64,000 bases of DNA from Aplectana chamaeleonis. Its lineage: Eukaryota > Nematoda > Chromadorea > Rhabditida > Cosmocercidae. Positions 1 to 49,080 of the stretch are shown here, piece by piece. A model generated the notes under the pieces. The model did not search any database. It was given only the letters and a program-made list of their open reading frames with translations, and was not told the origin of the DNA. The stretch lies in contig JAPDOI010000192.1 of NCBI GenBank assembly GCA_029168955.1, forward strand, positions 603,501 to 667,500. The letters are read 5' to 3'. The translations under genes and the position numbers were made by a program. The stretch's first letter is position 1; every line of letters begins with the position of its first letter.

Positions 1-72
1 CTAATTAATCGGCGCTCTCCACCGGCCAACGGTGAGGCACTGCGCCTATTGAGGTGTGCTCTAGAAGGCGAT

Positions 73-122
73 GGCGGGTTAGGGTGAAAAGTCCTCGAGA
101 GGACTTTTCGGCGTAACCCGCC
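73..122. repeat. imperfect 50-bp palindrome (hairpin)
   Basis: The outer arms GGCGGGTTA (73-81) and TAACCCGCC (114-122) flank perfect inner arms of 11 bp, GAAAAGTCCTC (86-96) and GAGGACTTTTC (99-109), around a 2-nt centre. Only the GGGT/GGCG steps between the arms are unpaired. It could be the end of a fold-back transposon or a small MITE remnant. No flanking duplication was identified. Confidence 0.7.
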
Positions 123-859
123 AACTCGGAGTTCTTCATGCATCATCATTGAAGCCGTGATTGTGCCAAGAACTGTCCGAATGCACGTCAACTCCCCAAC
201 GGCTGGCGCAAAATTCGTCATGCGTAGTGATGACGCAATCAATAGCCCAGTATTGCCATTCTTTGATTGATCAACGAAGACAAATCCAGCTGACTGTTTC
301 GCCCGTGATTGTCTATTTTACCTAGCTTTCGTGTTTTGCGTTCACGATTTCTCTCGTTATATGTTCTTTTTTTGGTTTGAAAAAGCATTGCAAATTTAAT
401 AGAACTGTCCGAGAAACCTCTCAAACGAATATCTGTTCCAGAATGCGCTGAAAGGCGGGTTTTAAAGTTCTTATTTCTTTGTTTTTGGGCTGTGTCTTTT
501 TGTTTCGTCTTTGCTTATCAACAGTTTACTAATCTCTTTTGTCGTGACCCTGTACCTTCTGTTTCCTTAGGTAGGCTTGAGAAAAAATACTAATAAATTC
601 AATCCAGTTTTAGAGCCGTGATATTCAATTTTCGAACATTCTCAAGTGTATGAAATGCGAATATCTCGCAGTCGAAAAATTGTCGAACACTAATACTGAA
701 CTATTCGATTTTTTTCTGATTTTTGTAAGAATTTTCCTAATATTAAACTGAATCCAATGCAGAACAATTATCCGTGTTTATTCATCTATCCGAAAGAATT
801 TAACATCGAATATTATTCGTTCAATTACTCTGAAGATTTCAGAAATGTTGCGAACACTA

Positions 860-900
860 ATTTCAACAACTTACCGAAGTCTTCCGTAAGTTGTTGAAAT
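860..900. repeat. 41-bp hairpin with 15-bp perfect arms
   Basis: ATTTCAACAACTTAC (860-874) is the exact reverse complement of GTAAGTTGTTGAAAT (886-900). The 11-nt centre holds a further GAAG/CTTC pairing. The word CGAACACTAAT just before it also occurs near 684. This is probably a tiny inverted-repeat element; a structured RNA cannot be excluded. Confidence 0.65.
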
Positions 901-3807
901 CGTGATCGTAAGTTGCGCAGCCTCATGCCCTAATGTGTTCTCAACATTTTCGGAACTGTTCTGTAACTCTCTAAAATATTTATTCCAACTATTAGTGTCT
1001 CGCCGCGATCGACTGATCGCGAAGCGAACCCTCCGCCGCTGCCATGAGGTCGCGGCGCCGCGAAGTTCGCATTGCGACGACGGGCGATCGGGCGCGGGGC
1101 TACACCCGTGTGTTAGTTACTTGCATGTGCGTCTATGTATTGGTAGCGGTTAAAACCGATCATAGGAGCATAAAAGTGTTGTAACCTGACTGAACCACCA
1201 CCCAAGGTGAGCACAGTGAGCACTTAATGCAGAAATAACTGCGGTTTTTGATAAAAAAAGTTTTTTCTTCTCTGTTCAGGCTGTTTAGGCAAGGCGTAAT
1301 ATAATATTCGGTTTCTAACACTGAACCAGGCTCTTTATTGCTTCCCGTGAAACTTTTTATTTTTAGAAGTTTGCATTTGAATAAATAGTGCGATAGCAGT
1401 AGTGAATAATTATATCTGTCGATACTCGTCTCCTTTAGAATCGCCTAATCTACCTCTAATGAAAGAACATTCGGCTTCTATTAGCACTAGATGATGACAC
1501 CCACAAGGACTCACTGGATTCTTTCAATAGAGCAAATATAGCAATTTTTTTCACAAACTTTGATTCTTAAAATTTTTTCTTTGTGCGATAAATTTGAGAC
1601 GCCAATTTTGCTAGTTGAAAAGTTAAAACAAACTACTAATCAGCAATATTTATTTTGCAAAGTATTGATTTTGTTTTCAAAAACTGAAAAAAAAACTTAG
1701 AATCGGTTGTTTGATACAGTAATAAATAATTGTGAAGATGAAGATGCGGAATGACCGCGTCAGGCGAAAGCTAACCGTTTGAGCCAAGTAAGTCAAGTAA
1801 ATAAATAATTAGTGATATAAACAGGTTCAAAAAGGGAAATGCTCGTATTACTCAGCTACATATGAAGTTAGTGCTTCAAAAAGAAGCAATTTCACGCGAA
1901 GAAAACTCGTTTTTCTTGCAAAAATAGAAAGATTTTTATTCATTTTCGGCACCATGATCAGGACGAAGAGAAGGTCGTAGAAAACTTCTCGAAACCTTTT
2001 TACAAAGCATGAAAGCTCAAAATATCGCCCGAAAACTTCTTTGTTAAACAAAATAGCCATAAGGTACAAGAAACGTATTGTAGTAACTCTAATCTTTATG
2101 CCAAATCTTTTTTGATAAGGATATTCAGATTGTCTATCTAATTTAAAACAATATTATCAGTTAATAACTACATCATAAGTATAATATAATATCATCAGTT
2201 GGAAACCCACCAAATAATTTTTCAATAGAGCTCTTGGTGTTATTCTTTTCAAAGTTGTTAGACATTCGCACGGATTATCGACCCAGATGTGCTAGATTAT
2301 CAATCCCAAATCCGTTTTTGGGTGGCCATAACACTCTGGGAGCGCATTTTTAGAGTCTCATTGATGATCTCAGCTAGCCCCAATCTGAAAATTGTGCCCA
2401 GAAATTGAGTCATTTTGAGAGAGCACGATGTCTCAGGTACTTAGCAAGGGTTCCAGAAGGGATTCTTATTTAGCTTTCTTTTTTTGTCCTGGGTTTCTTT
2501 CATTTTTTCACGTTCACCTGAACGGAAGAAGCTAAACGGAATGTTGCATACATAATGTGGCCACAAGTCCAACGAGGCAGTCCAATATGATTGTATTGCT
2601 AATAATTTTGTGTATTCGAGATTTCTGTTAATCAAATGCCACAAAGCCGTCAAAACCTGACTTCTGAACACGCTGTTTTCTTTTTTTTACTCGCGCTTGC
2701 TACCTCGTCTCGAAATTAACGCAAACAATAACAGGTTTCAAACAAGAAATTTGATAAGCAGTAAAGAAAAACAATTTGAGAAAGGATGTGTAACGCCCGA
2801 GCATAGTGAAGAGTGGAAAACGATGAAACTGATCAATCAAGGAAGAGGTTGCAAAAGCCTCTCAGTTAGTTGTTCCTGCAAATATTTGTCACGCTTCCGA
2901 CGTCTACTAGGTTGCCTGCCGATTAGCGCTATTTGTAACTAACGAAAACTATACTGCAAGTTTCTTCACGCCCATAAGGCCCATCGAAACATGATTTTAG
3001 CATTCTAACCTGCTCGTAACATTATCGAAAACTTCAGAGTACTCGGCTCGGTCCCATGTCTAGTATTTACTCTCCTTGTGTTTGCATAGCTGATGCTAGC
3101 AACCACAAAAAGCAGGTAGTACCAGCATTTTTGTCCGCGAAATGTTTATTTTTCATGTTCACCTTGAGAGTGAGTTTATTTCTTCCAGGCTACTTTTCTA
3201 ATAAAATTTTTTCCCTAAACGATTTTCAAATTGGGTAAAATGTGGTTATTGCGGAAGTGAAAACGACAAGTTGAGTGTTTTCTCTGTCCGTTTTTCTTTT
3301 ATAGCCTGAGAAAACAAATGCTACAGGGCAAAGACAAAAGTGAATGGTAAGGTTGTCATGAACGCAGACAAAAAAACAATCAGATCTAGACTTCCACAAT
3401 AGAGATTTCAAATTTCACCTTTTTACAAATTCTGGAAAAGCTATCCCTCTGCCCAATTTTTCGGCCAATTCTACCTCATATCGTAGCACTCCATATATCT
3501 GAAGACATCGCCAAGGAAGGTGGAGAACTCAGAACGTGAAAGCTAGACAAAGAAAGAACAAACAGAGAAAAAACTATCAGCTGAACGGATTGGTCAATGA
3601 AAGCATGGATATAATAACTGAAAAGAAAGTGTGACTTTGATCAAATGTATGCCAAACACATCGTGAACACGAGAAGAAAGGGTGCGCGCTAAGCAAAAAC
3701 TGATTTCCACTCTCATCATTGTTAAGGCTACTGTTTATCTAACAAGTGTTGATGAGTATGAAACACTGTTCAAGAAGGTTGGAGAGCATATTAGCAGCCT
3801 TTCTCTA

Positions 3808-3884
3808 AGTGGTTTGGTGGTGTAACGCAATGTAGCGCTGCTGTCACCAGCGCGGTCAGTGGTTCGAATCCGCGAACATCCGCT
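3808..3884 (+). tRNA. tRNA-Asp(GTC)-like sequence, probably a tRNA-derived repeat or pseudo-tRNA
   Basis: An A-box-like segment (TGGTGTAACGC, from 3819) and a near-consensus B box GGTTCGAATCC (3861-3871) lie at tRNA spacing. A 5-bp anticodon stem CGCTG/CAGCG encloses the 7-nt loop CTGTCAC, which is typical of tRNA-Asp with anticodon GTC at 3843-3845. AGTGG (3808-3812) can pair with CCGCT (3880-3884), one G-T pair included. A run of five T (3884-3888) gives a Pol III-type stop. The acceptor and T-arm junction is imperfect, with about three extra bases, so a functional tRNA is doubtful. A tRNA-derived SINE or pseudo-tRNA fits better. It resembles the tRNA-like domain of the satellite at 18.8-25.1 kb. 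Confidence 0.45.
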
Positions 3885-4154
3885 TTTTCACTTGCATGTG
3901 GAAAAGTTAAAGACGTGAATCATCTGTGGCACGGTATGATAAGCACAGCTTGGTGCAGAGCGATGTACCGCTGCTCATGTACCAGGGCTCGCGGGTTCTC
4001 ATCCGAGGGATTTCTAGTTTTGCGAACAAATATGTATGTGGCGGTTCCCAGTTCAACTTAGAGTTACACCGATGTCTCAAGTTAGAATTTCTCATCGTTA
4101 TCGTGACATTATCACAATTCTTAACTCGGAGTTCTGGGTAGTTTACTACCACCC

Positions 4155-5310
4155 CAGCAATTTCTTGCGCCATTTGAACAGATTCTTTTTGCTCGTTTTC
4201 TCCGGTACAGACACATTTCGCCGTTCGATACATATTTTTAACAACCGCCCTTTTTGTTTGTGAGGGGTGTGCTGATTGGTAATGAACAATTATGTTTTTG
4301 TTATTTGGTTTGCGATACCATTTTGTGGCGAAATTGCCCCCCGAAAATTTTATTTGGACATTTAGGAAAGGAAGCCAGTCTACCACCGGTTTTTCCCGGG
4401 TAAATTTAACATTTTCCGACTGATTGTTGATAAGTTCAAAACACTGGTCCATTTCCTCGTGGGTGGGGCAGACAACAAAGCAGTCGTCTATGTACCTACA
4501 GTATAGCATTGGGAGCCGTGCCAGCACCGGAGATTCGATTTGACCCATAAATGCTATGGCAAGCGTGGGAGCTAGGCGCTGTCCCATGGCCAGCCCTCTG
4601 ACCTGACTAAAGTATTGTCCTGACCATCTGAAAATGTTGCATTTAAGGCACTCATGGAGAAGTGTCATAAGCTGCGCAATCGTTAACCCGAACATGTTAA
4701 TGGAGCCTTGGTGTTGGGTAAGAAGCTCGAAAACGGCCTCCATAGCATGGTCATTGCTGACATTGGTGTAGAGGGCGGTGGCGTCAAAAGACTCCATTAT
4801 GCACGGGTTTGCGGGTTGAATGCTGCGGAGATGGTCAAGGAATGCGCGGGTGTTTGGGAGGTGGGCCGGGATGTGGTCTAGCAGTTGTTTTGAAATGTTG
4901 TTGATGAACCAGGCAATACGATCAGTGGGACCACCCAAGCAGCTGATGATGGGCCTGACATTTATGGAAATGGGGCTGATGGTGGCCAGATCCTCCTCCG
5001 CTGAGAACTTGTGAGTCTTTACGAGAAGGTACAAAACAGGGCAAAATGGGGAGTCAATTTTAAGGCGAGTGATGAGAGACGGGCTCAAATCTGCTGATTT
5101 TCCAACTTTAATCCACTACCTGTTGAGTCTACGATACTGTGCTTGAAATTCTCTGGCAGTGGAGGGACGGTAAAGAGAGATATCCTGCAGGTGTTGCTCC
5201 GTTATAGCCTTGTCCAGCTGGTTAGGGATTATGACGAATTCCCCTCCTTTATCGCTGACGGAAAGGCGTTTAGCCTTAGACTCCACCAACTCCCAAATCT
5301 TCCCAACAGC
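4155..5310 (-). pseudogene. Penelope-like element, reverse transcriptase fragment (minus copy)
   Basis: Read on the minus strand from 5310, this encodes the fingers and palm of a Penelope-like reverse transcriptase. The fingers word SDKGGEFVIIP comes first. It is followed by the motif A region ESFDATALYTNV (about 4759-4797), the motif B region GLAMGQRLAPTLAIAF, and the catalytic YIDD of motif C (codons 4483-4494). One in-frame TAG (5116-5118) interrupts it. Otherwise the frame stays open from 5310 through the RT homology. Homology to the plus copy stops at about 4155, just after the word EIA. The open frame running on to 3907 is unrelated sequence. The thumb-to-endonuclease part and the 5' end are missing. 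At 5308-5310 it abuts the plus copy in head-to-head orientation. It is a dead fragment. Confidence 0.88.
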
Positions 5311-5313
5311 TTC

Positions 5314-5889
5314 TTACCCAACACCAAGGCTCCATTAACATGTTCGGGTTAACATTGCGCAGCTTATGACACTTCTCCATGAGTGCCTTAAATGCAACAT
5401 TTTCAGATGGTCAGGACAATACTTTAGTCAGGTCAGAGGGCTGGCCATGGGACAGCGCCTAGCTCCCACGCTTGCCATAGCATTTATGGGTCAAATCGAA
5501 TCTCCGGTGCTGGCACGGCTCCCAATGCTATACTGTAGGTACATAGACGACTGCTTTGTTGTCTGCCCCACCCAGGAGGAAATGGACCAGTGTTTTGAAC
5601 TTGTCAACAATCAGTCGGAAAATGTAAAATTTACCCGGGGAAACCGGTGGTAGACTGGCTTCCTTTCCTAAATGTCCAAATAAAATTTTCGGGGGGCATT
5701 TTCGCCACAAAATGGTATCGCAAACCAAGTAACAAAAACATAATTGTTCATTACCAATCAGCACATCCCTCACAAACAAAAAGGGCGGTTGTTAAAATCA
5801 TGTATCGAACGGCGAAATGTGTCTGTACCGGAGAAAACGAGCAAAAAGAATCTGTTCGAATGGCGCAAGAAATTGCTGCTCTTAACTAA
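5314..5889 (+). pseudogene. broken PLE reverse transcriptase, plus copy
   Basis: The palm region covers GLAMGQRLAPTLAIAF, YIDDCFVVCP (YIDD at 5540-5551) and FLNVQIKFSGG. It is split into three frames by single-base deletions near 5353 and 5641, and ends at TAA 5887-5889. The amino acids are nearly the same as in the minus copy: EEMDQCFEL is shared, and the differences are few substitutions such as H/Q and I/V. Both therefore derive from the same recent PLE family. The fingers domain and motif A are absent. Confidence 0.85.
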
Positions 5890-5901
5890 TATCCCCCCAG
5901 T

Positions 5902-6513
5902 ATGGTTCTGCGCAGATCCAGAGGCTCAGCCGCACGCCGCGAAGAGCAGGAATCTGCAGTTGATGGCAAAAATCCCATAAAAATGCCCTTCATTTCGGAT
6001 GAAGTGAGAAAATCTCTGCGAAAATGCCTACGCAAAGCCGGTCTGGAAAGCTCTGTCGCCATTGCTGACATCCCTCCAAATAACATCAAAAACCGCCTCA
6101 TCCGAAACCATCTATATGACCGCATTTGCACAACTCCCAATTGTGTGGTCTGCCCAACTGGTAGAGAGGGAGATTGCACTGCATGCGGTGTGGTCTACAG
6201 GATCTCGTGCCAGCTTTACGGCAAGCAATATATTGGTGAGACTTTGCGGCCGCTCTGGGTTAGAATCAAAGAGCACTTAGACGGCAAGGATAAGCTGCGG
6301 GTATCAACAGATCTGGGGTGTCACCGTGTTAACGCCCACAACGGCGATAATTACCATGTCGAGGTCGAGATAATTGCGCGGGAAACCTATACCCCTGCCA
6401 GAAAAACCCTGGAGGCATTTTGGATCCAGGCGAGCGACCCAAAAATCAATCGGAAGGGGGAGTGCCTATATAAAGCTGGAAAGCTCAAGCCCTACCTCAG
6501 ACTCGCATTCTAA
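5902..6513 (+). CDS. GIY-YIG endonuclease domain of the Penelope-like element (partial polyprotein)
   Basis: A 203-codon open frame encodes the C-terminal part of the PLE polyprotein. A basic linker (VLRRSRGSAARR) is followed by a Cys cluster of C-x4-C-x2-C-x7-C-x2-C form. The GIY-YIG nuclease comes next: GVVY (6187-6198), YIG (6229-6237), an Arg-rich helix with RIKEH, a Glu in the LEAFWI segment, and an Asn-containing INRKGE near the end. These are the positions expected for the Tyr, Arg, Glu and Asn active-site residues of the family, which nicks target DNA for target-primed reverse transcription. The ATG at 5902 is probably not a native start. It lies 13 nt after an in-frame TAA that interrupts the same frame as the upstream RT piece. 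The domain looks intact, but it is stranded from a working RT. Confidence 0.85.
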   Translation: MVLRRSRGSAARREEQESAVDGKNPIKMPFISDEVRKSLRKCLRKAGLESSVAIADIPPNNIKNRLIRNHLYDRICTTPNCVVCPTGREGDCTACGVVYRISCQLYGKQYIGETLRPLWVRIKEHLDGKDKLRVSTDLGCHRVNAHNGDNYHVEVEIIARETYTPARKTLEAFWIQASDPKINRKGECLYKAGKLKPYLRLAF

Positions 6514-6717
6514 TGTCGAGAGGTAGCGGTTTCGATCTGTGCTCCGCCATCCGCCAACCGTTCTATGCTGCTGGTCCTCTAGCGAGTTTCCTGGCAAGGT
6601 GCGGTAACTTCCTAGTTTCTCTATTGATGACCACGTTTTGAAAGAATCTCTCTAGAATTTTAGTAAGGTTTAGTCGACATTTGGCCGAATAAGCACATTT
6701 CTGATTTGTTCCTTTCA

Positions 6718-6757
6718 GGCTCTGAAGACGGCGATCCCGCCGAAACGTGCGTAAGCC
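6718..6757 (+). ncRNA. hammerhead-ribozyme-like motif at the PLE 3' end (type I topology)
   Basis: GGCT (6718-6721) can pair with AGCC (6754-6757) as stem I. CTGAAGA (6722-6728) matches the CUGANGA core. GGCG/CGCC (6730-6733 and 6738-6741) form stem II with a 4-nt loop, and GAAA (6742-6745) matches the second core strand. ACG/CGT (6745-6752) forms a minimal stem III, followed by a GTA cleavage triplet with the cut predicted after A6753. One extra C (6729) lies between core and stem II, and stem III has only a 2-nt loop, so activity is uncertain. PLE terminal repeats are known to carry minimal hammerheads (established). The same bases can also be read as a last exon after TTTCAG, encoding ALKTAIPPKRA then stop. 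Confidence 0.6.
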
Positions 6758-6763
6758 AATAAA
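6758..6763 (+). promoter_or_regulatory. AATAAA polyadenylation-type signal of the PLE
   Basis: AATAAA lies immediately downstream of the ribozyme-like motif, 245 nt after the stop codon of the endonuclease frame and 25 nt before the next transposon. It is a plausible transcript end for the plus PLE copy. Confidence 0.5.
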
Positions 6764-6787
6764 GCATCAACCAACCTCGTGGTCCAG

Positions 6788-7281
6788 TTAAAGGCAGTGT
6801 TCACGATGAAAAAAGTTTTCGAAATTCCACTAGGATTGGGTAGTGGAGGGACAGTCTGTAACGTTAACGTCGAGAGAACGCATGAAAACGAGCCAGGAAG
6901 AGCCCCAAAAGAGCCCGAAGTTGCAACTTCGAGCGCATTGAAAACCCCAAAAACGCATCACACGCCCACCGACGTGAACAAATGAATGCTCGAGATCGTG
7001 AGATGAGCTATGATTTTCAATCATTAGCCCCGTTCTTCCCTTCATTCTCAGCTTCTCTCTTTACTCAGGTCAGCTCGCATAGATCGGCTGCAAAAGACGG
7101 AAGTTACAAGCCTCGAACAACTCGTCCACCATGTTTTCATAGCTCAATCTTTGAGGGACCATAACTCCGTTCCCAGAAGGTCTTGTTGGATTTCAGAGAC
7201 ATCATTGGAATCAGCATGGGGCCGTTTTGAAGATAGGTGGGAGAACAGAAAAACGATTTTCATCGTGAACACTGCCTTTAA
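6788..7281 (+). mobile_element. nonautonomous DNA transposon, family A copy 1
   Basis: TTAA then AGGCAGTGTTCACGATGAAA on the left (from 6788) is mirrored by TTTCATCGTGAACACTGCCT then TTAA on the right (ending 7281). The target duplication is TTAA. The interior shares recognisable stretches with copies at 7802-8269 and, inverted, 14883-15376: AACTCGTCCACC, CATAACTCCGTT and CATCATTGGAATCAGCAT. It has no transposase. TTAA targets are typical of piggyBac-type integration, but the AGGCA terminus does not settle the superfamily. Confidence 0.82.
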
Positions 7282-7801
7282 ACAAAACAACTACTACTGA
7301 GTTTTGAAGATGTTCGTATCAGTTTTGAAGGTGTTCGATTTTAAAGATGCAAGGCAATGTAACTTCAAAATCCTATGCTTTGGTACGCCCGCTATTTTCA
7401 GAAGAAGAAATATTCAAAAAATTGAGTTTTAGAGTCAAGAATTCGGTGATATAAATTATAATCGATCCCAATTTCTCAAGTGAGTTCAAGAGAAACTCCC
7501 AATTTCTGGATAAGGTCTCAGCTAGAATTCTCGACAAATACTGCGAATCCCGAAATTTTCGACAACTTCTATCCACTTTTTGAACAACTTCTCGATTCTT
7601 GACCAATTCTGGACAACTAGTTTTACCTGATTTGGTCGAAAGTAAAGATGGACCTCGATCACAAATTCAGCGCTCTAGGATTACGCCTAGGAAAATTGTA
7701 AAAAAATCTATCTCGTGGATATTTTTGATTCCTTCCGCATTTTCAATTCGGGAATCGGAAGCTCAAAAACCATCAAAAATCGGAATTCCGTTTACTCCTG
7801 G
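7282..7801. other. spacer between two family A transposons; no gene seen
   Basis: This is AT-rich sequence with no recognised domain, TIR or RNA. The short open frames on either strand carry no motifs. Confidence 0.6.
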
Positions 7802-8269
7802 TTAAAGGCAGTGTTCACGAAGAAAAAGTTCCCCCTTTTTGGCTAAAACGTAAGCTTTGGGTCCCTTTAAGAAGATCAAGAACGGAAGTGCGACGAAAAA
7901 CGGCCGGTAAGTGGGTGAAAATCTCGTGGGCCAGCCGACCCATTGGGCCAGTCCGCCCACGTCCTATAACAGCTCCCCTGAATTTGTGGTTAAATGAGCG
8001 GTGGTTTCCTTTCAAAAGCCCAGTTCATCCCTTCATTCTCAACGTCTCTCTTTACTCAGGTCGGCTCGCTCATATCGGCTGCAAAAAACGGGAGTTACAA
8101 GCCTCGGACAACTCGTCCACAACTTTCCCTTGCTGAATTTCGAGGGGCCATAACTCCGTTTCCAGGGGTCTTGTACTATTCCAGGGACATCATTCGAATC
8201 AGCATGTGACCGTCTTCAAGATAAGCGGAAAAACAGAAAAACGACTTTTATCGTGAACACTGCCTTTAA
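7802..8269 (+). mobile_element. nonautonomous DNA transposon, family A copy 2
   Basis: TTAA plus AGGCAGTGTTCACGA begins at 7802, and TCGTGAACACTGCCT plus TTAA ends at 8269. The interior is homologous to copy 1 in the same order (GGCTGCAAAA, AACTCGTCCAC, CATAACTCCGTTTCC), with substitutions throughout, so the two copies are not recent duplicates. It has no coding capacity. Confidence 0.82.
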
Positions 8270-8436
8270 GAAGCTGCTAAGAGCATACTCGAATTCCACG
8301 TGCAAAGTGGTTCCAGAAAAGTACATTTCATCCGGAATGAACAGGCTAACTTAAAGTAGTTCCCTTGTAAGAAGCGTTTCTAAAGCAGTGGCTCGGTTCT
8401 ACTCAATATTTTGCGATTGATAATCAAGCACTTCTC

Positions 8437-8900
8437 TTGAAGGCACAGTACACCCTCAGATATGAATTTTGAGATTTTCATGGAATTGTGTAGAAGACCC
8501 CCCCTATACAACACGTGCCAAATGCGAGATCTCAGTTCCTCCAAATAGGCGAGATATTAGCGACCACCACAGGCCCGACCCCCAAACAGATTTTCGAACT
8601 CGATAGCGGCTCGATGGATGGATGAATTCCAACAAGTCGTCGTTCTTCAGTCCATTAGCGGACTGTCTCCTTATCCTGGCTTTCTCTAACGCAACGATTG
8701 CGAATGAAGAGAAGTACAGTCCTGAGACAACTCGTCCACCATTTTTTCACCCTTGAAATCTAGGCGTCTTTGAAGAGCCATAACTCTGTTCAAAGGGGGT
8801 TTCGGACGATTTCAGAGATACCACTGTGATCAGCGTGTGACACTCCCCAAGATAAGCATGAAATCTGAAAAATAATTTTTTGGGTGTCCTGTGCCTTTGA
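8437..8900 (+). mobile_element. nonautonomous DNA transposon, family B copy 1
   Basis: The left end AGGCACAGTACACCCTCAGA and the right end GGGTGTCCTGTGCCT form the inverted termini. They are flanked on both sides by TTGA rather than TTAA (8437-8440 and 8897-8900). The interior shares AACTCGTCCACC and GAGCCATAACTCTGTTC with copies at 8925-9420 and 15373-15864. It is more distantly similar to family A. Confidence 0.8.
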
Positions 8901-8924
8901 ATATTCAAACCATGCGCTAATGTA

Positions 8925-9420
8925 TTAAAGACACCGGACACCCGGGATTAATTTTCAGATTTCATGCTTTACTTGGAGAGAGTCACACGCTGATCGCAGT
9001 GATATCTCTGGAATCGTCCAAGACCCCCGTTGAGCAGAGTTATGGCTCTTCAAAGATGACTGTATTCTGAGGGTGAAAAATTTTTGGACGAGTTGTCTCA
9101 GGCCTGTATTTCTCTTCATTCGAAATCGTTGCGTGAGAGAAATCCAGGATAAGGAAACAGTCCGGAAATGGACTGAAGAACGACGACTTGTTGGAATTCA
9201 TCCATCCATCGAGCAGCTATCGAGTTCGAAAATCTGTTTGGGGGTCGTTCCTGTGGTGGTGAGCGAAGGAGGGTGGTCTCACGCCTGTGGTGGTCGCTTA
9301 TATCTCGCTTATTTGAAGGAATTGAGATCTCGCATTCGCCAGGTGTTATACAGGAGGGGTCTTCTACACAATTAAATGAAAATCTCAAAATTCATATCTG
9401 AGGGTGTACTGTGCCTTTAA
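8925..9420 (-). mobile_element. nonautonomous DNA transposon, family B copy 2 (inverted)
   Basis: This is the reverse complement of family B. It starts at TTAA 8925-8928 with the right-end sequence (GGACACCC, then TTTCAGATTTCATGCTT) and ends with TGAGGGTGTACTGTGCCT and TTAA at 9417-9420. It faces copy 1 tail to tail across a 24-bp spacer, so the pair forms a large imperfect inverted repeat. Confidence 0.82.
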
Positions 9421-11821
9421 GGTCTTCAATGAAATTTGTAGTTTCGATAAATCCACTTTGTTTATAACAGGTTTTTCTTTTGGAAAAAAAGATTGGTCAT
9501 TGATCAGGAAGCAAGCTCGGGAGGTTTCGCGTAGTACGAACCTTTTTTCCAGCGTCATATATCTGAACAAATCCACTGGTGTTACGTTGAATTAAGGACG
9601 GTTTTTCTCTACCATATGTGGGGAGAAGGGTAGGGGCGCTCACTTGATATTCTAGCAAACGTTGAAACCTGGGAATTTCCATAGTTTCTAATAGAGATGT
9701 GAAACGTTCTCCGTTTACATCCCATTACCTGTGCGATATAAGAAAAGAGGTATATACAGGAAACAAGCAACACTGTCGGCTGAGCCATTGTGTAGTGATT
9801 GCTTATCCCGACTATCTCATTGCAAGCAGTGGTTTTCATGCAACGAGCATTGATAGTATTGGTGCATTCCTGAGCTTCATAGTTGTAACTTCACTAGAAT
9901 ATTTTCAAGAAGCTCTTCTCTTGAAACGTTTTATTGCAACGAGCATTGTTCAAGGGATCAGAAAACACGTCATAACTTTTGAACCAGACTAGGTTTCGTC
10001 TTCAAACTTTCTGAAGAGTTTAGATTTCAGCATTTTCAGATGATTTCAAAGCCCCACGGATCACATTTGTTCAATATCCTCATAATCCAGCGTTCCGACT
10101 TTTTTCCTTTTTTGGTTGTTTTTGATCTACCCATGAGGACTGAGTGAAATTTTAGAATCTTAAATTGTTTCGTTTTGTCTCCCCTACAACCCTCGACAGA
10201 TCGTTTTTTGAAACTTCTTTTTGTGTTCAGAGTGATCCGTTGTGAGGCGGCGCGCCTCAGCGACACCACCGGCCAGCGAGGTTTCGATCGCAGCCCCGTC
10301 CATTCACTGGGCTGAATTCTACAGGAAGCTTTACGGTTGACACGAAACGCACTGATACTTTGGGTTCCTTAGACCTACGTCGCACATGCCTCGCAGAGCC
10401 TGTGGCTGCTCTCAGCGGCAGGTTTGCTCTTGGCCAATTTCGAATTTGGACCAATCATAGACCTGTCGCTTAGGGCAACGACAGGCTTTGCGACGCAATA
10501 ATACTGTAGGTCTTACTGCGCATTGGCGCAATTCTAAAACAGGCTAAAAAAGGGTTTGAAAAGCAATCCTAGATGGGTGAGAAAATTTTTTTTCAGGTCG
10601 GAAATTTCGAAAAAGTGTCCTCCATATATTAAAACAAGCGTGTGAGGGGAGCTAGATGCGGATGCTGGAATATGTGAAGTTTCGAGTATGATTTCATTGA
10701 ATTGATTCCAAACCGAGCTATGGGGGTCAAAGGTGTTATGGTCTCACTTTGATCCGAAAGCGCTACCGGACCACCGGGACCAGCCCGGTAAATCGCGGAT
10801 GTTTCCGTTTCAAAATTCTTCTGGCTAAATTTTTTGATGGTTGGCAGATCATGGAACGTATTTATTGAGCTTGGAATGGTGAGGCCCCAAAGTTTCATAA
10901 AAGTCAAATTGAGAGAAGTCCCAAGTCGGTCTGAAATCAGTGTCTGACTAAACACTCGGAAACGCGGGAACCTAATATACACTGGATCCGAATCAAAAAA
11001 TTTCGGATACTCGGATTTCGGATAACTCAAAAATCGAAGGTCTTGGATATCCGACTGAAATGGATAGAGTCAAAATAACAACATTGGACACATTGGACAA
11101 TCCGAGTCATTCGGATAGAGAGGCTAAACGGATATTCGAATCTCGGATCAATCCGAAAATTACGTTTTTTTTCGGTGATCCGGAATTTGGATCATTCGGG
11201 TTTTGACCTTTTCTCGGTGAGTCGGAATCCGAATATCCGAGTCGGATATCCGGTCGGATACAAGTGGGTATAATGCACTCTGGCGAAGATTTTCAAGAAA
11301 AAAAAAGGTCTTCTACCGTACCATGATCGAACAATTCATTGATAATCATCTTTATATCGAAATATTTGCAAACCGATTCTATTTTTAAAAATGTGTTAAT
11401 CAATTTCGTAAACACTTGTGAATTCCTCTCTGAACCTCTTCGAACAGGGTGAACGCGTTCGGTCAATACACATGGTGTTTGGGAGACAATCGTACCCTCA
11501 ATGAGAACTTGCAAGAACAAATCAGACGAAGAGGATCAATGCCATATGCGCAAAATCTACGCTGACGATGCGTTGAAATGCGCCGGAAATTTCACACTGT
11601 GCGCCAATTGTATGTCTGTAGTGTCTCATGCAAACTGGGGCGTCGGTAACAGGTTGATGCGCTCACCATGAGCACCGCTGGCCAACGCGCCGATATTTGG
11701 CAGGGCCGCTAGCTATGGTCTGGTGAAGCTGTTGTACAGCTAGCGTTTTCGCGCTCTAGATAAAAGGAAAGTATACGACGCATTTTCAGGCATGCTTCAA
11801 ATGATAAGATGCGAGGCAGCC
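9421..11821. other. unassigned intergenic DNA; no gene recognised
   Basis: No protein family is recognisable. A 133-codon minus-strand frame (10629-11030) has no known motif and lies in repeat-like sequence. Short inverted repeats occur, such as CCTGTCG/CGACAGG at about 10462-10485 and TAGACCTAC/GTAGGTCT at about 10370-10517. Degenerate short words of the ATCCGA/TCGGAT type cluster at about 10980-11260 and make weak palindromes. Confidence 0.55.
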
Positions 11822-11843
11822 GGTTCAATTACTCAGGTTTGGG
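11822..11843 (+). other. 22-nt match to nematode SL1 spliced leader with following GGTA
   Basis: Eighteen of 22 positions match the SL1 leader as I recall it, and all four differences are transitions. The next bases (GGTA) reproduce the SL RNA splice-donor context. No Sm-binding site (AATTTTTGG-like) or SL RNA stem-loop is visible in the following 100 nt, which are GC-rich. It could be a degraded SL RNA pseudogene, an SL tag left by a retrocopied mRNA, or chance. It is not a functional SL gene as far as I can see. Confidence 0.35.
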
Positions 11844-11896
11844 GTATAGGCCCCTCCCTGCATCTGGAGGCCCTGCCCATCCGGTGGCTGCCCCAG

Positions 11897-11968
11897 CCGC
11901 GGCGCGTGTCAGTGTGCTGACCGCGACGCGTGTTGGTGTGCCGACCGCGACGCCTGTCGGTGTAAAGT
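11897..11968. repeat. three tandem copies of a 24-bp GC-rich repeat
   Basis: The units start at 11897, 11921 and 11945, each a variant of CCGCGACGCGTGTTGGTGTG plus four bases. The surrounding DNA is not GC-rich to this degree. No coding context is recognised. Confidence 0.8.
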
Positions 11969-12294
11969 AGTTCCTGAGCTAGATGAAACAGTCCTGCAGG
12001 ATGTGAACCACTGCTAAATACACGAAATGTCACCAGCCCGACAACAAGGTAAACAGGGGGCAATGGGCAGGTCTCCGGCGGAAGATGTGCGCGATTTGAG
12101 TTGTCAGTCAACAACTCAAAGGGCTACAGTAGAACGAAATCCGCATGGCTACAGTAGAATGAAATATCGAGTCGTGACATCAGATACACTTTTTTGAGTA
12201 ACAGCATATCAGCCGAATCTACCGATATCCGACTCATTATCCGATGCGAATCATGATATATTTCGGATATTCGGTATCCGAATATTTGTCCGAC
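11969..12294. other. unassigned DNA between simple repeats
   Basis: There is no gene here. A short duplicated word (GGCTACAGTAGAAYGAAAT) occurs twice at about 12121-12166, and TCCGA/CGGAT-type words begin near 12215. Confidence 0.5.
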
Positions 12295-12500
12295 TCATAG
12301 AACATTTCGGTGATTCAGATTTTGGATCAAACGGATTTTGGGTTTTTTTTTCGGTAAATCGGATTTTGGATCACTCGGATTTTGACGTTTTTTCAGTGAT
12401 TCGGACTTTGGATCATTCGGATTTTGACGCTTTTTTTTCGGGGAATCGGATTTTGAGTCATGAAAATTTCGGTTCATTCGGATGGATATCCGAAAATGAG
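12295..12500. repeat. degenerate tandem repeat of about 47 bp
   Basis: Three to four imperfect units each contain TCGGATTTTGGATCA, CGGATTTTGACG and a T-run. The region starts about 50 bp beyond the 3' end of the last visible amidase exon and lies in its downstream intron or flank. Confidence 0.65.
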
Positions 12501-12551
12501 TGAGTCGGATCCAATGTATAGTACCTAACAAGAAACGTTGAGAACTCTCAC

Positions 12552-12637
12552 GTGATGTCATAGTGTCCAATGATATTGTATTGGTCAATGGACCAGCGAA
12601 ACTTCAGCAAAGCGACTAGCTCCTTGACGGCTTCCAT
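12552..12637 (-). CDS. amidase exon c (GHxD motif)
   Basis: After a 69-nt intron (12638-12706, GTTTGT to GGTACAG) the 86-nt exon encodes MEAVKELVALLKFRW, SIDQYN and IIGHYDI plus two bases. This is the C-terminal helix and the second zinc-His motif. The donor GTGAGAG starts at 12551. Without splicing the frame stops at TGA two bases on, before the expected KxDPG ligand, so either another exon lies to the left or the gene is truncated. Confidence 0.78.
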
Positions 12638-15600
12638 CTGTACCAATCAATGGAACATCAACATTCGAAGGAACAGAGCTCTCATGAGGATCTGTCAGGA
12701 ACAAACCTGTTTGTTAGGGAAGGGGACAGCACCTGTGTTCACAATCTCGATTCCAACGCTGTTACTGTTCACATCGTTTATGTTGCGCCAACCACCAGTG
12801 CCAGCATGCCATGCACGATGATAATCAGCAACTTGTTGGTAAACGGTGCCATTCAGGGCTACTGCAACGGAACACAATAGTTCAACACTTCAAGGCACAG
12901 TCCAACCTTAGAGGTAATTTCTGATATTATGGTCCGGTCGCCGTTCATGGGGGACGTCCGGTTGTATCGCCGCGGCCTGACCCCGTCGCGACGCGGCGTC
13001 GCACGGCTAGGTCGCGGACGAGTTACCCTCCGCGATACGAGATTTGAATCTTAAAGGACGTGCAGACCCTGTTTACTGCAATATTATTCTTGACACGTTA
13101 ATCTGAGAGATATTCACTGTTATTATAGTCTTCGTCTACGTTTCTAACTGATATTCACTATTATTCTAGTCTTCGTCTACGTTTCCGTCCAAGCCGTGCT
13201 TTTCTAGACATTTTTCGATTAAATTCGCGTTCTCTAAAACGCGTAATTTATCGCAGAAAGTTGGAAAAAGGCCTGTGCTCTTTCACCTTCAGGTTTAGCA
13301 GCAGTTTAAGAACCAGCTAGAGTTCGTAATAGTTTCTTAAATTTTCGAAAGAGAAATAAATCGAACATTGGTTAATTCTTCCAAATGTTACGTTTTGTGG
13401 ATATCCGTGAATAATTATTGATAATAGTGATGCTCCAAATTCCCTATTTTTCCAATTATTTCGAAATTGAATTTCGTAATTAACTTGAGTTTCTTTTTTT
13501 TGTCCCAGCTAAAAAAGGCGGAAAAGGGCGTTGATTAAGGTGATTTTGTGGTCGGAACCCACTGAAATTTTAAACACTGTATGTAGACAATAAATCATTT
13601 TCAATAACAATTGATGATTAAAGCATGCGACTTTGTGCGAAAATTCAACCTAAATCAAGATATTTTATACATAATCATAAAAACTTTGATGGAAGCGGGT
13701 GGAAGACTCTTTTTGCGTAAGATGTAGCTGTTTTCAGTACAAAAACCTAAGTTCTCTACTACGACTGCAATTATAAGCCACAACTTGGGTGGGTTTTTCA
13801 AAAAATCGTCCCTCCACTACATATGTTCAAAATCTCCTTCAAAGATTTTAAAAATTCTCAAAATTATGGGGTTTTTCAGGAAAAAACCATCTCTCCACTA
13901 CGTCAAAATTTTCCCCGAGTTTAAAAATTCTCACTGCCCCAACTTTCCCTGATGGTGAAATTTTCGAATCGATGGTCGGTTTTCTTTCTTGAAAAATTAT
14001 ACATCCACTATGCCCAAATTTTCTCCGATGGCAACCATCTTCAATTTAGGGTTGATTTAAAGAAAATTGTAAACGTAATCAAAACGTGTCGCAATCTGGA
14101 TGTTTTTTTTTCGAAAACTCGTCCCTCCACTATGCACAAATTTTCGCTGATTTTAAAGATTGTCACGATTTAGGTGGGTTTTTCGAAATCAAACTTCAGG
14201 GAATCGGACGCGTCATTTCTCTGCTGTTGTTGTAGTAATGCACTGGCGTGGGTTCACTTGCTACTCGACACGCCAAGGGTACTGTAGATTTCGTATCGCT
14301 GCGCCCTTTCACCGCGCGGCGATACAACCGGACCCCACCCGCCGTCCATCTCAATTCGCTCAAATAAGCGAGAAAAAGCTAGGAAAAAGTTGACCACGCC
14401 CCTTTGAAAAAAATGAGTAACGCCCGCTGGCAGGTTTCCGACCTCAATACGGAAGAGACGCGCGAATGATTTTATTCGAAATCTATGTTCTTCCATTTGT
14501 TTTCGTCCTGGCTTTACAGGCCATAAAACGGCCAATGTCTCACCGTCGACTGCGTACCACGCGCTGCGCGACCGCACGCACGTCGGAAGCGAACGAGTTT
14601 TGGCCGCCGCGCGACGAGTTTTGGCCGCCGCGCGGCGAAAAACGAAAACTCGATTCTGAGGTTGGACTGTGCCTTTGAAGGCAGTGTTCACGATTTTCTT
14701 ACCCGAGGTTTCCACTCAAAACAATGCGTTGGACACCAAGTGTTACCAAATTGACGAAGAAACGGCAAGAAACACAATGTATCGTCTTATTTTAGTGACA
14801 CTATTCTCTACCCTGAACTAGTTGTCTTGTTCGATGAACATTTTCACGATGGTTGAAACCGTTCAAAAAAGGGGGCTAATCATTAAAGGCACTGCTCGCG
14901 ATGAAAATCGCTTTTCTGTTTTTTTTTGCGTATCTTGAAACCGGTCCCATTCTGATTCCACTGATGCTTCTGGAATCGTACAAGACCTTCTGGGAATGGA
15001 GTTATGGCCCCTCGAAAATTGAGCTAGGGAAGTATGGTGGACGAGTTGTCCGAGGCTTGTAACTTCCGTCTCTTGCAGCCAATGTATGCGAGCTGAACTG
15101 AGTAATGAGAGAAGTTGAGAATAAAGGGAAGAACGGGGTTCTGATCGGAAACCATCGCTCAACTCACAATTTCGAGGGTTCCTTTGCTCACGTCTAGGGG
15201 CGGAAAGGGGCCGGACTTGCCCACAGCGGCGGTGTTTCCCCACTTTTCTAAGCCGTTTTGCGGCTCCTGGGTAGCTTTTTTCCCGTTTTTTCGACGCTGT
15301 TCTGCTTCTGAGTGCCACGAGAAGCGTTTGTCATGGAAAATTCGAGGATGAAGTTTATCGCGAACAGTGCCTTTAAAGGCACAGTACACCCTCAGATATG
15401 AATTATGAGATTTTCATGAATTTATGTAGAAGACCCCTCCTGTATATCACGTGTAAAATGCGAGATCTCAATTCCTTCAAATAAGCGAGATATAAGCGAC
15501 CACCACAGGCCCGACCCCCTTCGCTCACCACCACAGGCCCGACCCCCTGACAGATTTTCGGACTCGATAGCGGATCGATAGATGGATGAATTTCAATAAT

Positions 15601-17261
15601 TCGTCGTTCTTCAGTCCATCGCTGGGCTATCTAGTTATCCTGACCCGCTTTCGCGCAACGATTGCGAACGGAGAGAATTACAGGCCTGAGACAATTCGTC
15701 CACTAAATTTTCACCCTCCAAACCTAGGCATATTTGAAGAGCCATAACTCTGTTCAAAGAGGGTCTTGGAGGACTTCGGAGATACCACTGTGATCAGCGT
15801 GTGACTCTCTCCAAGATAAGCATAAAATCTGAATATTAATTTTTTGGGTGTCCTGTGCCTTTAATGGAAGACTAATTTGGGCCAAACACTATTAGTTAGG
15901 GTCCAACGGAAAGAACGAAACAACACAAAAAAGAGAATTGCCAAAGACGGGTCCACAAAAGATTCCATTGTCACAACAAACAGTTCCACTGAGAGTAAAG
16001 AAGTGGGGTGAGAGTATAGATTTTCGGGCCCTTCTAAAGCATTTTTCTCGGTTTCTTCGTCATTTAAGTTCTACTCGGTGGCCAAACAATCGATTTAGCG
16101 ATTAATCTCAAAATCGAAGATTATCGTGAACACTGCCTTTAAGGCCGGGATCATACTTCTAGCGGCGAGCGACGCGGCGCAATGTTTAAAATCCATATCG
16201 ACCAAAAATCGATATGCCTAATGTGCACTGTCCCCGTCGCTGGTCGCGCGAAGTATGATCCCGGCCTAAGAGACCGCGCGCTCCACGGCCATTCAATTCG
16301 GTGAGTTTTTAAACTAAATTTTTGTTGTAAGCGACTGTATTAAAATGACTTTAAGAGACCGCGCGCTCCACGGCCAATCAATTCGGTGAGTTTTTAAACT
16401 GAATTTTTGTTGTAAGCGACTGTGTTAAAATAACTTTAAGAGACCGCGCGCTCCACGGCCAATCAATTCGGTGAGTTTTTAAACTGAATTTTCGTTGTAA
16501 GCGACTGTGTTAAAATGAGATATATGGCGCTTATTATCTGCATACCAGCTGTGGAAGTTGTATGAAGCATGGATATAAAAGCAACAAAAAGAAGCAACTT
16601 GAAGTAAAACGAAACAAATCGAGTTCTTCGCGTGGGTGCGCAGTGTGGACACGCGGTCCATTAAGTGTTGAAGCATCGTCCATTCAGCACGCTGTTATCT
16701 ATTTCTTCGAAGATCACGAGTGGGTGTTTCTTTTTAGAAAACGAAGATGACGGGAGAGCTTCTCAGAAGTCTCGATTAAAAAGAGAAAAACCAGGGTTAT
16801 GTACAAGTAGTTGAGAATGTGCTTGAATCCACGCAATATCGCGATGTTTTGAAAAGTTCTGGCAACTGATTCCATCAGTATGAGATCGCGGCAGACATCT
16901 TGTGATAGTCGGCGGGTGGAATTTGGGGCATTTAGGCATCTTATATCCCCGAAACAATATTTGTTCGACGCACCAAACTTTACAACAGGGCAAAGCTTAG
17001 CCCAGGTTGAAGCATGAAAAGAAAAAATGATATTGCGCGCGCAATGGCTTCAATCAATTTTTCCATTTATCAACGCACTGCATACTCACCAATGTACTGC
17101 ACGGAGAGACTTCTGTTGTTGAGCACCTGGATGGTGTCATCGGCAGTTGCCGTGACCGTATGATGGAGAAGGATAATGAACGGCATCGTACACGTTGTGC
17201 CGTAATTCGATGTGGTGTTTGTGATGTCAATCAATGTGAAACTGCTTTGATGCGTTTGATA
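12552..17261 (-). CDS. N-acetylmuramoyl-L-alanine amidase (Amidase_2 family), partial, 3 exons seen
   Basis: Minus-strand exons 17090-17261, 12707-12861 and 12552-12637 join in phase to one Amidase_2 (AmpD/PGRP-like) domain. This is a zinc hydrolase that cuts the bond between N-acetylmuramic acid and L-alanine in bacterial peptidoglycan. Visible landmarks, in order, are FIILLHHT (first zinc His), LNGTVYQQV, YHRAWHAGTGGW, NSNSVGIEIVNTG, and IIGHYDI (second zinc His). The expected third ligand, the Asp of a KxDPG motif, would lie in a further exon that I could not find at 10.0-12.55 kb. The start and any secretion signal are also not identified. Intron phases agree (phase 1 then phase 0), both introns are GT-AG, and no stop interrupts the three exons, so selection probably kept the frame. 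C. elegans has no PGRP, which suggests a bacterial origin of the gene (inference). The first intron is 4,228 nt and full of transposons. Confidence 0.82.
12707..12861 (-). CDS. amidase exon b (central part of domain)
   Basis: The 155-nt exon begins after TTCCGTTGCAG and completes a Val codon with exon a. It encodes ALNGTVYQQV, ADYHRAWHAGTGGW and NSVGIEIVNTG, the central sheet and substrate groove of Amidase_2. It ends in phase 0 before donor GTTTGT (12706). Reading through the donor meets TGA three codons later, which supports the splice. Confidence 0.88.
12889..14679. mobile_element. DNA transposon C (1.8 kb, nonautonomous) inside the amidase intron
   Basis: AGGCACAGTCCAACCTTAGA on the left (from 12893) is mirrored by TCTGAGGTTGGACTGTGCCT on the right (to 14675). 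The four-base flanks are TTCA on the left and TTGA on the right, TTAA-like. A 19-bp subterminal inverted repeat (GTCCGGTTGTATCGCCGCG at 12956-12974, complement at 14315-14333) supports one unit or a nested one. No transposase is recognised. The right TTGA is shared with the next element, family A copy 3. Confidence 0.7.
13800..14180. repeat. degenerate internal repeats of element C
   Basis: Four spaced blocks at about 13808, 13890, 14000 and 14113 share the word CTCCACTA followed by a CAAAATTTTC-like stretch and a TTTTTC-rich lead. Spacing varies from about 80 to 115 bp. This looks like an old tandem array inside the transposon. Confidence 0.55.
14883..15376 (-). mobile_element. nonautonomous DNA transposon, family A copy 4 (nested, inverted)
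   Basis: TTAA plus AGGCACTGCTCGCGATGAAA (from 14883) and TTATCGCGAACAGTGCCT plus TTAA (15373-15376) form the ends. The interior is the reverse complement of copies 1 and 2 (GGAATGGAGTTATGGCCCC, GGTGGACGAGTTGTCCGAGG). It sits inside copy 3. Confidence 0.8.
15373..15864 (+). mobile_element. nonautonomous DNA transposon, family B copy 3
   Basis: The ends are AGGCACAGTACACCCTCAGA and GGGTGTCCTGTGCCT. The left TTAA (15373-15376) is shared with family A copy 4, and the right TTAA is at 15861-15864. The interior matches family B copy 1 in the same orientation, with a 27-bp partial internal duplication (ACCACAGGCCCGACCCC twice, at about 15502 and 15531). Confidence 0.82.
16143..16266. mobile_element. 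124-bp MITE, PIF/Harbinger-like
   Basis: The terminal inverted repeats GGCCGGGATCATACTTC and GAAGTATGATCCCGGCC are perfect over 17 bp and flanked by TAA on both sides (16140-16142 and 16267-16269). A 3-bp TAA/TTA duplication and a GG-starting TIR fit PIF/Harbinger. The interior holds CATATCG/CGATATG. It inserted at the very edge of family A copy 3. Confidence 0.78.
16268..16521. repeat. three tandem copies of an 85-bp repeat
   Basis: Units start at 16268, 16353 and 16438 with AAGAGACCGCGCGCTCCACG and include CAATTCGGTGAGTTTTTAAA and GTTGTAAGCGACTGT. Copies differ at only a few positions. The array begins directly at the right flank of the MITE. Confidence 0.85.
17090..17261 (-). CDS. amidase exon a (N-terminal part of domain)
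   Basis: The acceptor CTTCCTTGCAG precedes the first exon base at 17261, and the donor GTGAGTATG begins at 17089. The 172-nt exon starts in phase 0 and ends after one base of a codon. It encodes about 57 residues, including TMPFIILLHHTVTATADDT with the first zinc-binding His and LNNRSLSVQYI, where the family has an S-x-H-Y strand. The same frame is open upstream to an ATG near 17325, but that extension does not look like a signal peptide. A further upstream exon is likelier. Confidence 0.82.
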
Positions 17262-18812: not shown

Positions 18813-21800
18813 GATTTTTGGATGGTTTTGCCGTAACTGCAGTTCAACGTCGCAGTGCACGTTATAATGTATGTTTACACAAGGTGCTGAGTTGAGTCGC
18901 AAAACGCTTGGCTTCCGGGCGAGATTGAACCAGCATATTCCCTTTCCGGGGAGCGCCTTATGCACTGCACCACCGTAGCCCCAGCGCCGCTCCTCACTCA
19001 ACTGCTCGGTAAATCTTCACCAGAAGCAATCATCCTTTCACCCGCATAACGTGGATGGAAACAGGAATACCGTCAGAGACTATCTAACAGTCGTAGACCT
19101 GTCAAGATGATGCCTTAGTTAAGTCTTACGATTTTGGATGGTTTTGCCGTAACCGTGGTTCAACGTCGCAGTGCACACGTTATAGTATGTTTACACAAGG
19201 TGCTGGAGTTGATCGCAAAACGCTTGGCTCGGGCGAGATTGAACCAGCATATTCTCTTTCCGGGGAGCGCCTTATCGCACTGCACCACCGTAGCCCCAGC
19301 GCCGCTCTCACTCAACTGCTCGGTAAATCTTCACCGAAGCAATCATCCTTTCACCCGCATAACGGGATGAAATGCAGGAATACCGTCAGAGACTATCTAA
19401 CAGTCGTAGACTCTGTCAAGATGATGCCTTAGTTAAGTCTTACACGATTTTTTGGATGGTTTTGCCGTAACTGCAGTTCAACGTCACGTGCAGTGCACGT
19501 TATAGTATGTTTACACAAGGTGCTGAGTTGATCGCAAAACGCTTGGCTCCGGGCGAGATTGAACCAGCATATTCTCTTTCCAGGGGAGCGCCTTATCGCA
19601 CTGCACCACGCGTAGCCCCAGCGCCGCTCTCACTCAACTGCTCGGTAAATCTTCATCGAAGCAATCATCCTTTCACCGCATAATGCGGGATGAAACAGGA
19701 ATACCGTCGAGACTATCTAACAGTCGTAGACCTGTCAAGATGATGCCTTAGTTAAGTCTTACACGATTTTTGGATGGTTTTGCCGTAACTGCAGTTCAAC
19801 GTCGCAGTGCACGTTATAGTATGTTTACACAAGGTGCTGAGTTGATCGCAAAACGCTGGCTCCGGGCGAGATTGAACCAGCATATTTCCCTTTCCGGGGA
19901 GCGCCTTATCGCACTGCACCACCGTAGCCCCAGCGCCGCTCCTCACTCAACTGCTCGGTAAATCTTCACCGAAGCAATCATCCTTTACTCACCCGCAGTT
20001 AACGGGATGAAACAGGAATACCGTCAGAGACTATCTAACAGTCGCTAGACCTGTCAAGATGATGCCTTAGATTAAAGTCTTACACGATTTTTGGATGGTT
20101 TGCCCGTAACTGCAGTTCAACGTCGCAGTGCACGTTATAGTATGTTTACACAAGGTGCTGAGTTGATCGCAAAAGGCGGCTCGGGCGAGATTGAATCCAG
20201 CATATTCCCTTTCCAGGGAGCGCCTTATCGCACTGCACCACCGTAGCCTCCCAGCGCCGCTCTCGACTCAACTGCTCAGTAAATCTTCACCAGAAGCAAT
20301 CATCCTTTCACCCGCATAACGGGATGAAACAGGAATACCGTCAGAGACTATCTAACAGTCGGCAGACCTGTCAAGATGATGCCTTAGTTAAGTCTTACAC
20401 GATTTTTGGATGGTTTTTGCGCGTACAACTGCAGTTCAACGTCGCAGTGCACGTTATAGTATGTTTACAAGGTGCTAGTTGATCGCAAAACGCTTGGCTC
20501 CGGGCGAGATTGAACCAGCATATTCCTTTCCAGGGAGCGCCTTATCGCACTGCACCACCGTAGCCCCAGCGCCGCTCTCACTCAACTGCTCGGTAAATCT
20601 TCACCGGGAAGCAATCATCTTCACCTACATAACGGATGATGAAACAGGAATACCGTCAGAGACTATCCCTAACAGCTCATGGGCCTGTCAAGATGATGCC
20701 TTAGTTAAGTCTTACGATTTTTGGATGGTTTTTTGCCGTAACTGCAGTTCAACGTCGCAGTGCACGTTATAGTATGGTTTACACAAGGTGCTGAGTTGAT
20801 CATGAGTCGATGCAACTTGTCCGGGCGAAGTTGAACAAGCATATTGTTCCACTTTCCGGGGCATATCGCACTGCACCCACCGTAGCCCCAGCGCCGCTCT
20901 CACTCAACTGCTCAGTGTAAGTACTTACACAACAGGATGAACAAGAATGTAATAGACTATCTAACAGTCGTAGACCACATAAAGTGATCCACCTTGGTGA
21001 AATCTACGATTTTTGGATGGTTTTGCCGTAACTGCAGTTCAACGTCGCAGTGCACGTTTATAGTATGTTTTACACAAAGGTGCTGAGTTAGTCGCAAAAC
21101 GGCTCAGCTCCGGGCGAGATTGAACCAGCATATTCGCTTTCGGGGAGCGCCTTATCGCACTGCACCACCGTAGCCCCAGCTTGCCGCTCTCCACTCAACT
21201 GCTCGGTAAATCTTCACCGAAGCAATCATCCTTTCACCCGCATAACGGGATGAAACAGGAATACCGTCAGAACTATCTAACAGTCGTAGACCTGTCAAGA
21301 TGATGCCTTAGTTAAGTCTTACACGATTTTGGATGGTTTTGCCGTAACTGCAGTTCAACGTCGCAGTGCACGTTATAGTATGTTTACACAAGGTGCTGAG
21401 TTGATCGCAAAACGCTTGGCTCCGGGCGAGATTGAACCAGCATATTCCCGCGCCGGGGAGCGCCTTATCGCACTGCACCACCGTAGCCCCAGCGCCGCTC
21501 CTCACTCAACTGCTCGGTAAATCTTCACCGAAGCAATCATCCTTTCACCGCGCATAACGGGATGAAACAGGAATACCGTCAGAGACTATCTAACAGTCGT
21601 AGACCTGTCAAGATGATGCCTTAGTTAAGTGCTTACACGATTTTTGGATGGGTTTGCCGTAACTGCAGTTCAACGTCGCAGTGCACGTTATAGTATGTTT
21701 ACACAAGGTGCTGAGTTGATCGCAAACAACGCTTGGCTCCGGGCGAGATTGAACCAGCATATTCCCTTTCCGAGAGCGCCTTATCGCACTGCACCACCGT

Positions 21801-21965
21801 AGCCCCAGCACCGCTCTCACTCAACTGCTCGGTAAATCTTCACCGAAGCAATCATCCTTTCACACCCGCATAACGGGATGAAACAGGAATACCGTCAGAG
21901 ACCTATCTAACAGTCCGTAGACCTGTCAAGATGATGCCTTAGTTAAGTCTTACGACGATTTTCTA
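18813..21965 (+). repeat. 317-bp satellite array, forward arm (about 10 copies)
   Basis: Monomers start with TTTTTGGATGGTTTTGCCG at about 18814, 19131, 19451, 19769, 20090, 20405, 20720, 21012, 21328 and 21646; one copy is about 25 bp short. Landmarks in each are AACTGCAGTTCAACGTCGCA, GTTTACACAAGGTGCTGAG, a tRNA-like block on the minus strand, CGAAGCAATCATCCTTTCAC, and GACCTGTCAAGATGATGCC. Differences are mostly scattered one- or two-base indels, as expected from either old decay or unpolished long reads. Confidence 0.92.
21418..21488 (-). repeat. tRNA-like domain within the satellite monomer (representative copy)
   Basis: On the minus strand GGCTACG (21488-21482) pairs with CGGAGCC at the other end in six of seven positions. 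TGGTGCAGTGCG (A-box-like) is followed by a D-arm pairing GTGC with GCGC, and GGTTCAATCTC resembles a B box with a T-arm of four pairs. The anticodon arm is degraded. The satellite monomer therefore probably arose from a tRNA-derived SINE. The same block recurs in every monomer and, on the plus strand, in the inverted arm (for example about 24974-25050). Confidence 0.6.
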
Positions 21966-26980: not shown

Positions 26981-26981
26981 T

Positions 26982-27071
26982 GAGGCCAGTAGGAGTGTGC
27001 AGAAAATCATGGAACAAGTGCAGGACCTCAGTATGTGCAGGACATCTGGGAAATGTGTGCAGGACCTTAGT
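26982..27071 (+). repeat. minisatellite patch inside the mariner
   Basis: About 90 bp of 21-bp units (AGTAGGAGTGTGCAGAAAATC, with GTGCAGGACCTCAGTATG) lie between the transposase core and the mariner 3' end, where about 40 C-terminal codons would be expected. Mariner-like 3' sequence and the terminal CCTAA resume after it. Confidence 0.75.
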
Positions 27072-49019: not shown

Positions 49020-49080
49020 ACATCATAGAACGTGTGCAGTACCCCACTAGGGGTGGGGTACTGCACACGTTCTATGATGT
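49020..49080. repeat. perfect 27-bp palindrome at the minisatellite orientation switch
   Basis: The 27 bp at 49020-49046 (including CATAGAACGTGTGCAGTACC) are exactly reverse-complemented at 49054-49080 around the 7-nt loop CTAGGGG. All monomers to the left read TGCAGGAC on the plus strand, and all to the right read GTCCTGCA. Confidence 0.93.

Follow-up and report, generated by a model that had tools for sequence, protein, structure and literature searches.

The 64,000-nucleotide stretch of the Aplectana chamaeleonis genome considered here (the window; C1112:603501-667500, on a contig, C1112, of 1,330,188 bases) contains three of the five exons of a minus-strand gene, and its sequence supports the assignment of this gene as one encoding a bacterial-type amidase, spliced and nearest to nematode proteins. 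The best explanation, to which we assign a probability of roughly 0.7, is a nuclear zinc amidase of the AmiD/AmpDh2 kind, most likely acquired from a bacterium in an ancestor shared by Plectus and the rhabditids and interrupted by introns at a later time.

The first coding exon found (17090..17261, minus strand) reads YQTHQSSF...HHT...SVQYI and holds the first zinc-ligand histidine, the second (12707..12861; VALNGTVYQQ...RAWHAG...GIEIVNTG) holds the glutamate of GIEIVN, and the third (12552..12637; MEAVKELV...IIGHYDI) holds the second zinc-ligand histidine. The first-pass annotation had joined these exons in phase across canonical splice sites, and this proved correct to the base, with GT/AG borders and a single open frame of 137 residues that includes the HHT, AWHAG, GIEIVNTG and GHYD motifs. 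A tblastn search with the O. dentatum protein P0001 recovered exon 1 at 71% identity (E 3.5e-24) along with exons 2 and 3. The third zinc ligand, reported earlier as missing, is present in a fourth exon beyond the window (C1112:579991-579809; TPERKNDPNGYFSW...), which was located with the C-termini of P0001 and of the Ancylostoma duodenale protein P0002, has an AG acceptor and a GT donor, and matches the C-terminus of P0001 at E 6e-19. Reading onward revealed a fifth exon, also outside the window (C1112:579712-579529), with an AG acceptor and a terminal TAA. The phases of all five minus-strand exons fit, giving 259 residues and a stop. Exons 1 and 2 are separated by an intron of about 4.2 kb (12862..17089), positioned where the A. 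duodenale model P0002 carries 18 extra residues and where the partial model P0009 begins, and positions 1..12551 belong to an intron of about 36 kb that leads to exon 4. The predicted exon junctions are supported only indirectly, by these orthologue gene models. The exon preceding position 17261, and with it the N-terminus that had already escaped the first-pass annotation, was not found in 277 kb upstream.

The Amidase_2 domain proposed earlier from the motifs was borne out by the Pfam profile PF01510, which matched the 137-residue product at E 6.7e-25 with 88.4 bits, well above the cut-off of 26 and well outside what chance would give. The Amidase_2 domain expected of AmiD/AmpDh2-type amidases was detected at E 2.5e-27, and the NCBIfam AmpD model gave the joined exons 1-3 a score of 58.9 bits, under its cut-off of 143. 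When the joined exons were compared with solved structures, AmpDh2, AmpDh3, AmiD and AmpD ranked well ahead of any peptidoglycan recognition protein (PGRP). The His, His, Asp set of zinc ligands is complete in the joined protein (H33, H134 and D144), with D144 presented by the PERKNDPNG sequence of exon 4. An exon-wise search of the 1.04 Gb assembly, in which two candidates were scored, gave this gene as the single PF01510 match; the A. ceylanicum orthologue found six matches, five of which are exons of the same gene and the last of which, on contig C996, is weak (E 0.185).

The wider family was assembled from two profile searches with a threshold of 1e-5; of the 2075 and 2671 proteins that these returned, the best 120 in each case were considered. 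In the protein search, O. dentatum P0001 and A. duodenale P0002 are 67% and 62% identical to the joined exons, respectively. The top rows of these best 120 come from A. duodenale, A. ceylanicum, H. polygyrus, C. nassatus, N. americanus and O. dentatum, and further ones from Auanema sp., M. spiculigera and P. sambesii. The metagenome proteins P0010, P0012, P0013, P0017 and P0018 also rank highly, P0121 does so in the second list, and D. pachys P0055 appears among the best 120 of the 2075. Among the matches listed, the family thereby spans at least six strongyles, three further rhabditids and Plectus, under source annotations of N-acetylmuramoyl-L-alanine amidase, hypothetical or unnamed protein, and no Caenorhabditis protein occurs among the best 120 of either list.

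A typical member begins with a domain of animal type, which is a saposin domain in strongyles and rhabditids and a CUB domain in two proteins of Plectus; the amidase comes next, followed by an AmiD-type C-terminal domain of peptidoglycan-binding-like character. With a signal-like start recognized by eye, such a protein looks to be secreted. The saposin fold was found at the N-terminus of the orthologues, a match to be read with the caution that helical folds call for, and measured against the usual saposin spacing, six of six cysteines agree in P0013 and four in the strongylids. In the A. ceylanicum orthologue the C-terminal domain follows the amidase and extends to residue 369, while Plectus sambesii P0014 and P0016 combine the amidase with a CUB domain in place of the saposin domain. 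A bolder reading, with somewhat less than even odds, is that nematodes made a two-headed antibacterial enzyme through a one-time fusion of a saposin domain, acting on membranes, with a captured AmiD, acting on the wall, before P0013 and the rhabditids separated, that Plectus independently joined a CUB domain to this captured gene, and that the PGRP-free Caenorhabditis later lost it.

The copy in the window retains the full active site, but its saposin portion and a helix of its C-terminal domain may have been lost. At GDYDQ-FKQE in exon 5 it lacks 17 residues that orthologues possess, AFNRHF among them. No saposin exon was detected in C1112:563501-897500 (334 kb, reaching 277 kb upstream of exon 1; a single satellite fills about 60 kb of this upstream part, and 5 kb of it is N), either by tblastn from the N-termini of four orthologues or by a fuzzy motif scan, and a degenerate DNA motif, used without a positive control, gave nothing over the whole genome. 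The copy may thus be either a pared-down functional enzyme or a gene in early decay. A rival account, in which it is a decaying pseudogene while the family remains functional in other worms, appears doubtful, though it is the likeliest of the rivals; its signal and saposin exons would be lost, its C-terminal helix deleted and its amidase frame open only as the loss is recent. This account would explain the missing saposin exons, the 17-codon gap in exon 5, the 36 kb intron ahead of exon 4, the satellite array of about 60 kb upstream, and an end branch of 0.37 for the window copy in the first tree described below, compared to 0.07 and 0.17 in Ancylostoma. However, the 259 codons are free of stops and frameshifts, the splice sites are canonical and 34 of the 35 ungapped invariant columns are retained, and a further 433 kb of contig lies beyond the stretch that was searched, 5 kb of which is N.

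Returning to the zinc amidase and its probable bacterial descent, its placement was assessed with two trees. The first has 44 rows, drawn from 219 proteins, and comprises the window protein, 16 worm-type proteins (P0010, P0012 and P0013 being counted as such by our own labelling), three sister metagenome proteins, 20 bacterial AmiD/AmpD-type proteins and four PGRPs; A. duodenale P0002 and P0009 were omitted, as were fragments and the majority of the bacterial rows. The 17 worm-type rows form one clade (support 100/97) that joins the three sister proteins (100/100), and the 20 bacterial rows separate this assemblage from the PGRPs (100/100). A second tree, to which 20 rows of one bacterial order were added, gave corresponding supports of 99/95 and 99/91, and with both trees rooted on the PGRPs the worm-type and sister rows fall among the AmiDs. 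A phylogeny with AmpD-type proteins and PGRPs had been proposed with the first-pass annotation, and here the PGRPs, only four of which were sampled, form a group of their own in all 200 bootstrap trees, with the worm rows elsewhere.

Two observations qualify this reading. In an approximately unbiased test, joining the PGRPs at the worm stem cost 5.1 log units and this union was not rejected (p 0.103), for which reason the bacterial origin is argued from the tree, the sequence ranks, the fold, and the C-terminal domain and architecture together. In addition, homology of the metagenome fragments P0126 and P0129, which resemble the sister set, starts at the same residue (YRYGIK) after unrelated letters; this common start looks like an intron border, and the sister proteins may therefore be eukaryotic, such that the donor and the direction of transfer are inferred. 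A vertically inherited animal PGRP-type gene, bacterial only in look, would account for the common Amidase_2 fold and the outcome of this test but is very improbable. Animal PGRPs are distant in both sequence rank and tree, and they are not known to carry the AmiD-type C-terminal domain. The ancient bacterial transfer and intron gain first proposed for this gene thus hold for its bacterial type, its splicing and its nematode affinity, and are qualified as to the PGRP union, donor and direction. The gain probably predates the split of Plectus from the rhabditids. Contamination by bacterial DNA, a concern already raised in the first-pass annotation, or else an insertion of very recent date would fit the strong likeness to bacterial AmiD, but has a negligible chance of being correct because the intron position is common to this gene and A. 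duodenale, the five exons are spread along a contig of 1.33 Mb, and related genes occur in Plectus as well as in nine named strongyles and rhabditids.

A rickettsial donor is a guess. P0001 matched 15 phage and 271 plasmid records, all below 60% identity, and found no match in viral contigs. In one gammaproteobacterial class, P0018 matched 206 of 369 genomes at 1e-20 (best 1.7e-33); in the phylum it matched a single one of 398 genomes at 1e-36, and in the order of that passing genome 21 of 174. Two of the 20 order matches examined (from 21) show no difference, over the aligned columns, from proteins labelled Alphaproteobacteria bacterium and Rickettsiales bacterium, and the motif FNRxxxPE occurs in none of these 20. 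P0121, searched without a positive control, matched 0 of 385 genomes of the class of the passing genome at 1e-48.

The satellite upstream of the gene is a minisatellite (unit about 21/42 bp, TGCAGGACCTCAGTAG...) that extends for about 60 kb, from about 25100 to 64000 and on upstream along the contig to 85-90 kb in window numbering. It switches strand near 49050, and because the best reverse-complement matches between its arms are 79-82%, its two arms are taken as arrays set head to head and not as a palindrome that arose by copying. A tandem repeat of about ten copies (unit 313-321 bp) occupies 18813-21962. At 3907-6513 the minus strand carries part of a reverse transcriptase (RVT_1, E 1.3e-11) and the plus strand a GIY-YIG domain (E 6.4e-6), a combination known from Penelope-like elements. 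A short open frame at 26725-27135 with ILLHDNARPHVA, without a Pfam match at 0.01, resembles mariner transposases.

The closest described case is the aphid AmiD, which is reported to have been acquired from a rickettsial bacterium and to be upregulated in bacteriocytes (PMC2829048). Like the worm gene, it is a bacterial AmiD-type gene in an animal nuclear genome, with an intron, three zinc ligands and a C-terminal tail, whereas the worm orthologues carry a saposin or CUB domain in front and are present in many nematodes. The two acquisitions are assumed to be independent, and the aphid sequence is absent from the trees. Escherichia coli AmiD and Pseudomonas aeruginosa AmpDh2 share the amidase, zinc ligands and C-terminal domain fold of the worm family, but are bacterial, unspliced and without a saposin or CUB domain. 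The nemapores or caenopores, nematode saposin-domain antimicrobial peptides, are secreted and of saposin fold like the worm orthologues, but consist of saposin domains only, and their survey left out proteins with additional domains (PMC10506718). The bacteria-eating eukaryote Trepomonas, a protist, has likewise taken up bacterial peptidoglycan amidases (PMC4967989), and N-acetylmuramoyl-L-alanine amidases are listed among the Gene Ontology terms of nematode secreted proteins in PMC4413821. No description of a saposin-amidase fusion was found in the open-licence literature, a coverage that excludes most subscription journals.

An AmiD-type gene with this probable history would yield an enzyme that its saposin domain could carry to bacterial membranes or lipids. 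Its complete ligands and fold suggest that this zinc amidase would separate N-acetylmuramic acid from L-alanine by cutting the bond that joins them in the wall, and gut or environmental bacteria may be lysed in this way for food or defence. Nematodes feed on or live amid bacteria, yet the model C. elegans is without PGRPs, as the first-pass annotation held and PMC7308585 states. The conserved saposin-amidase family of hookworms, gut strongyles and free-living relatives probably represents a bacterial gene that was captured and then joined to domains of animal origin, and it offers a testable candidate for how these worms digest bacteria or fend them off.
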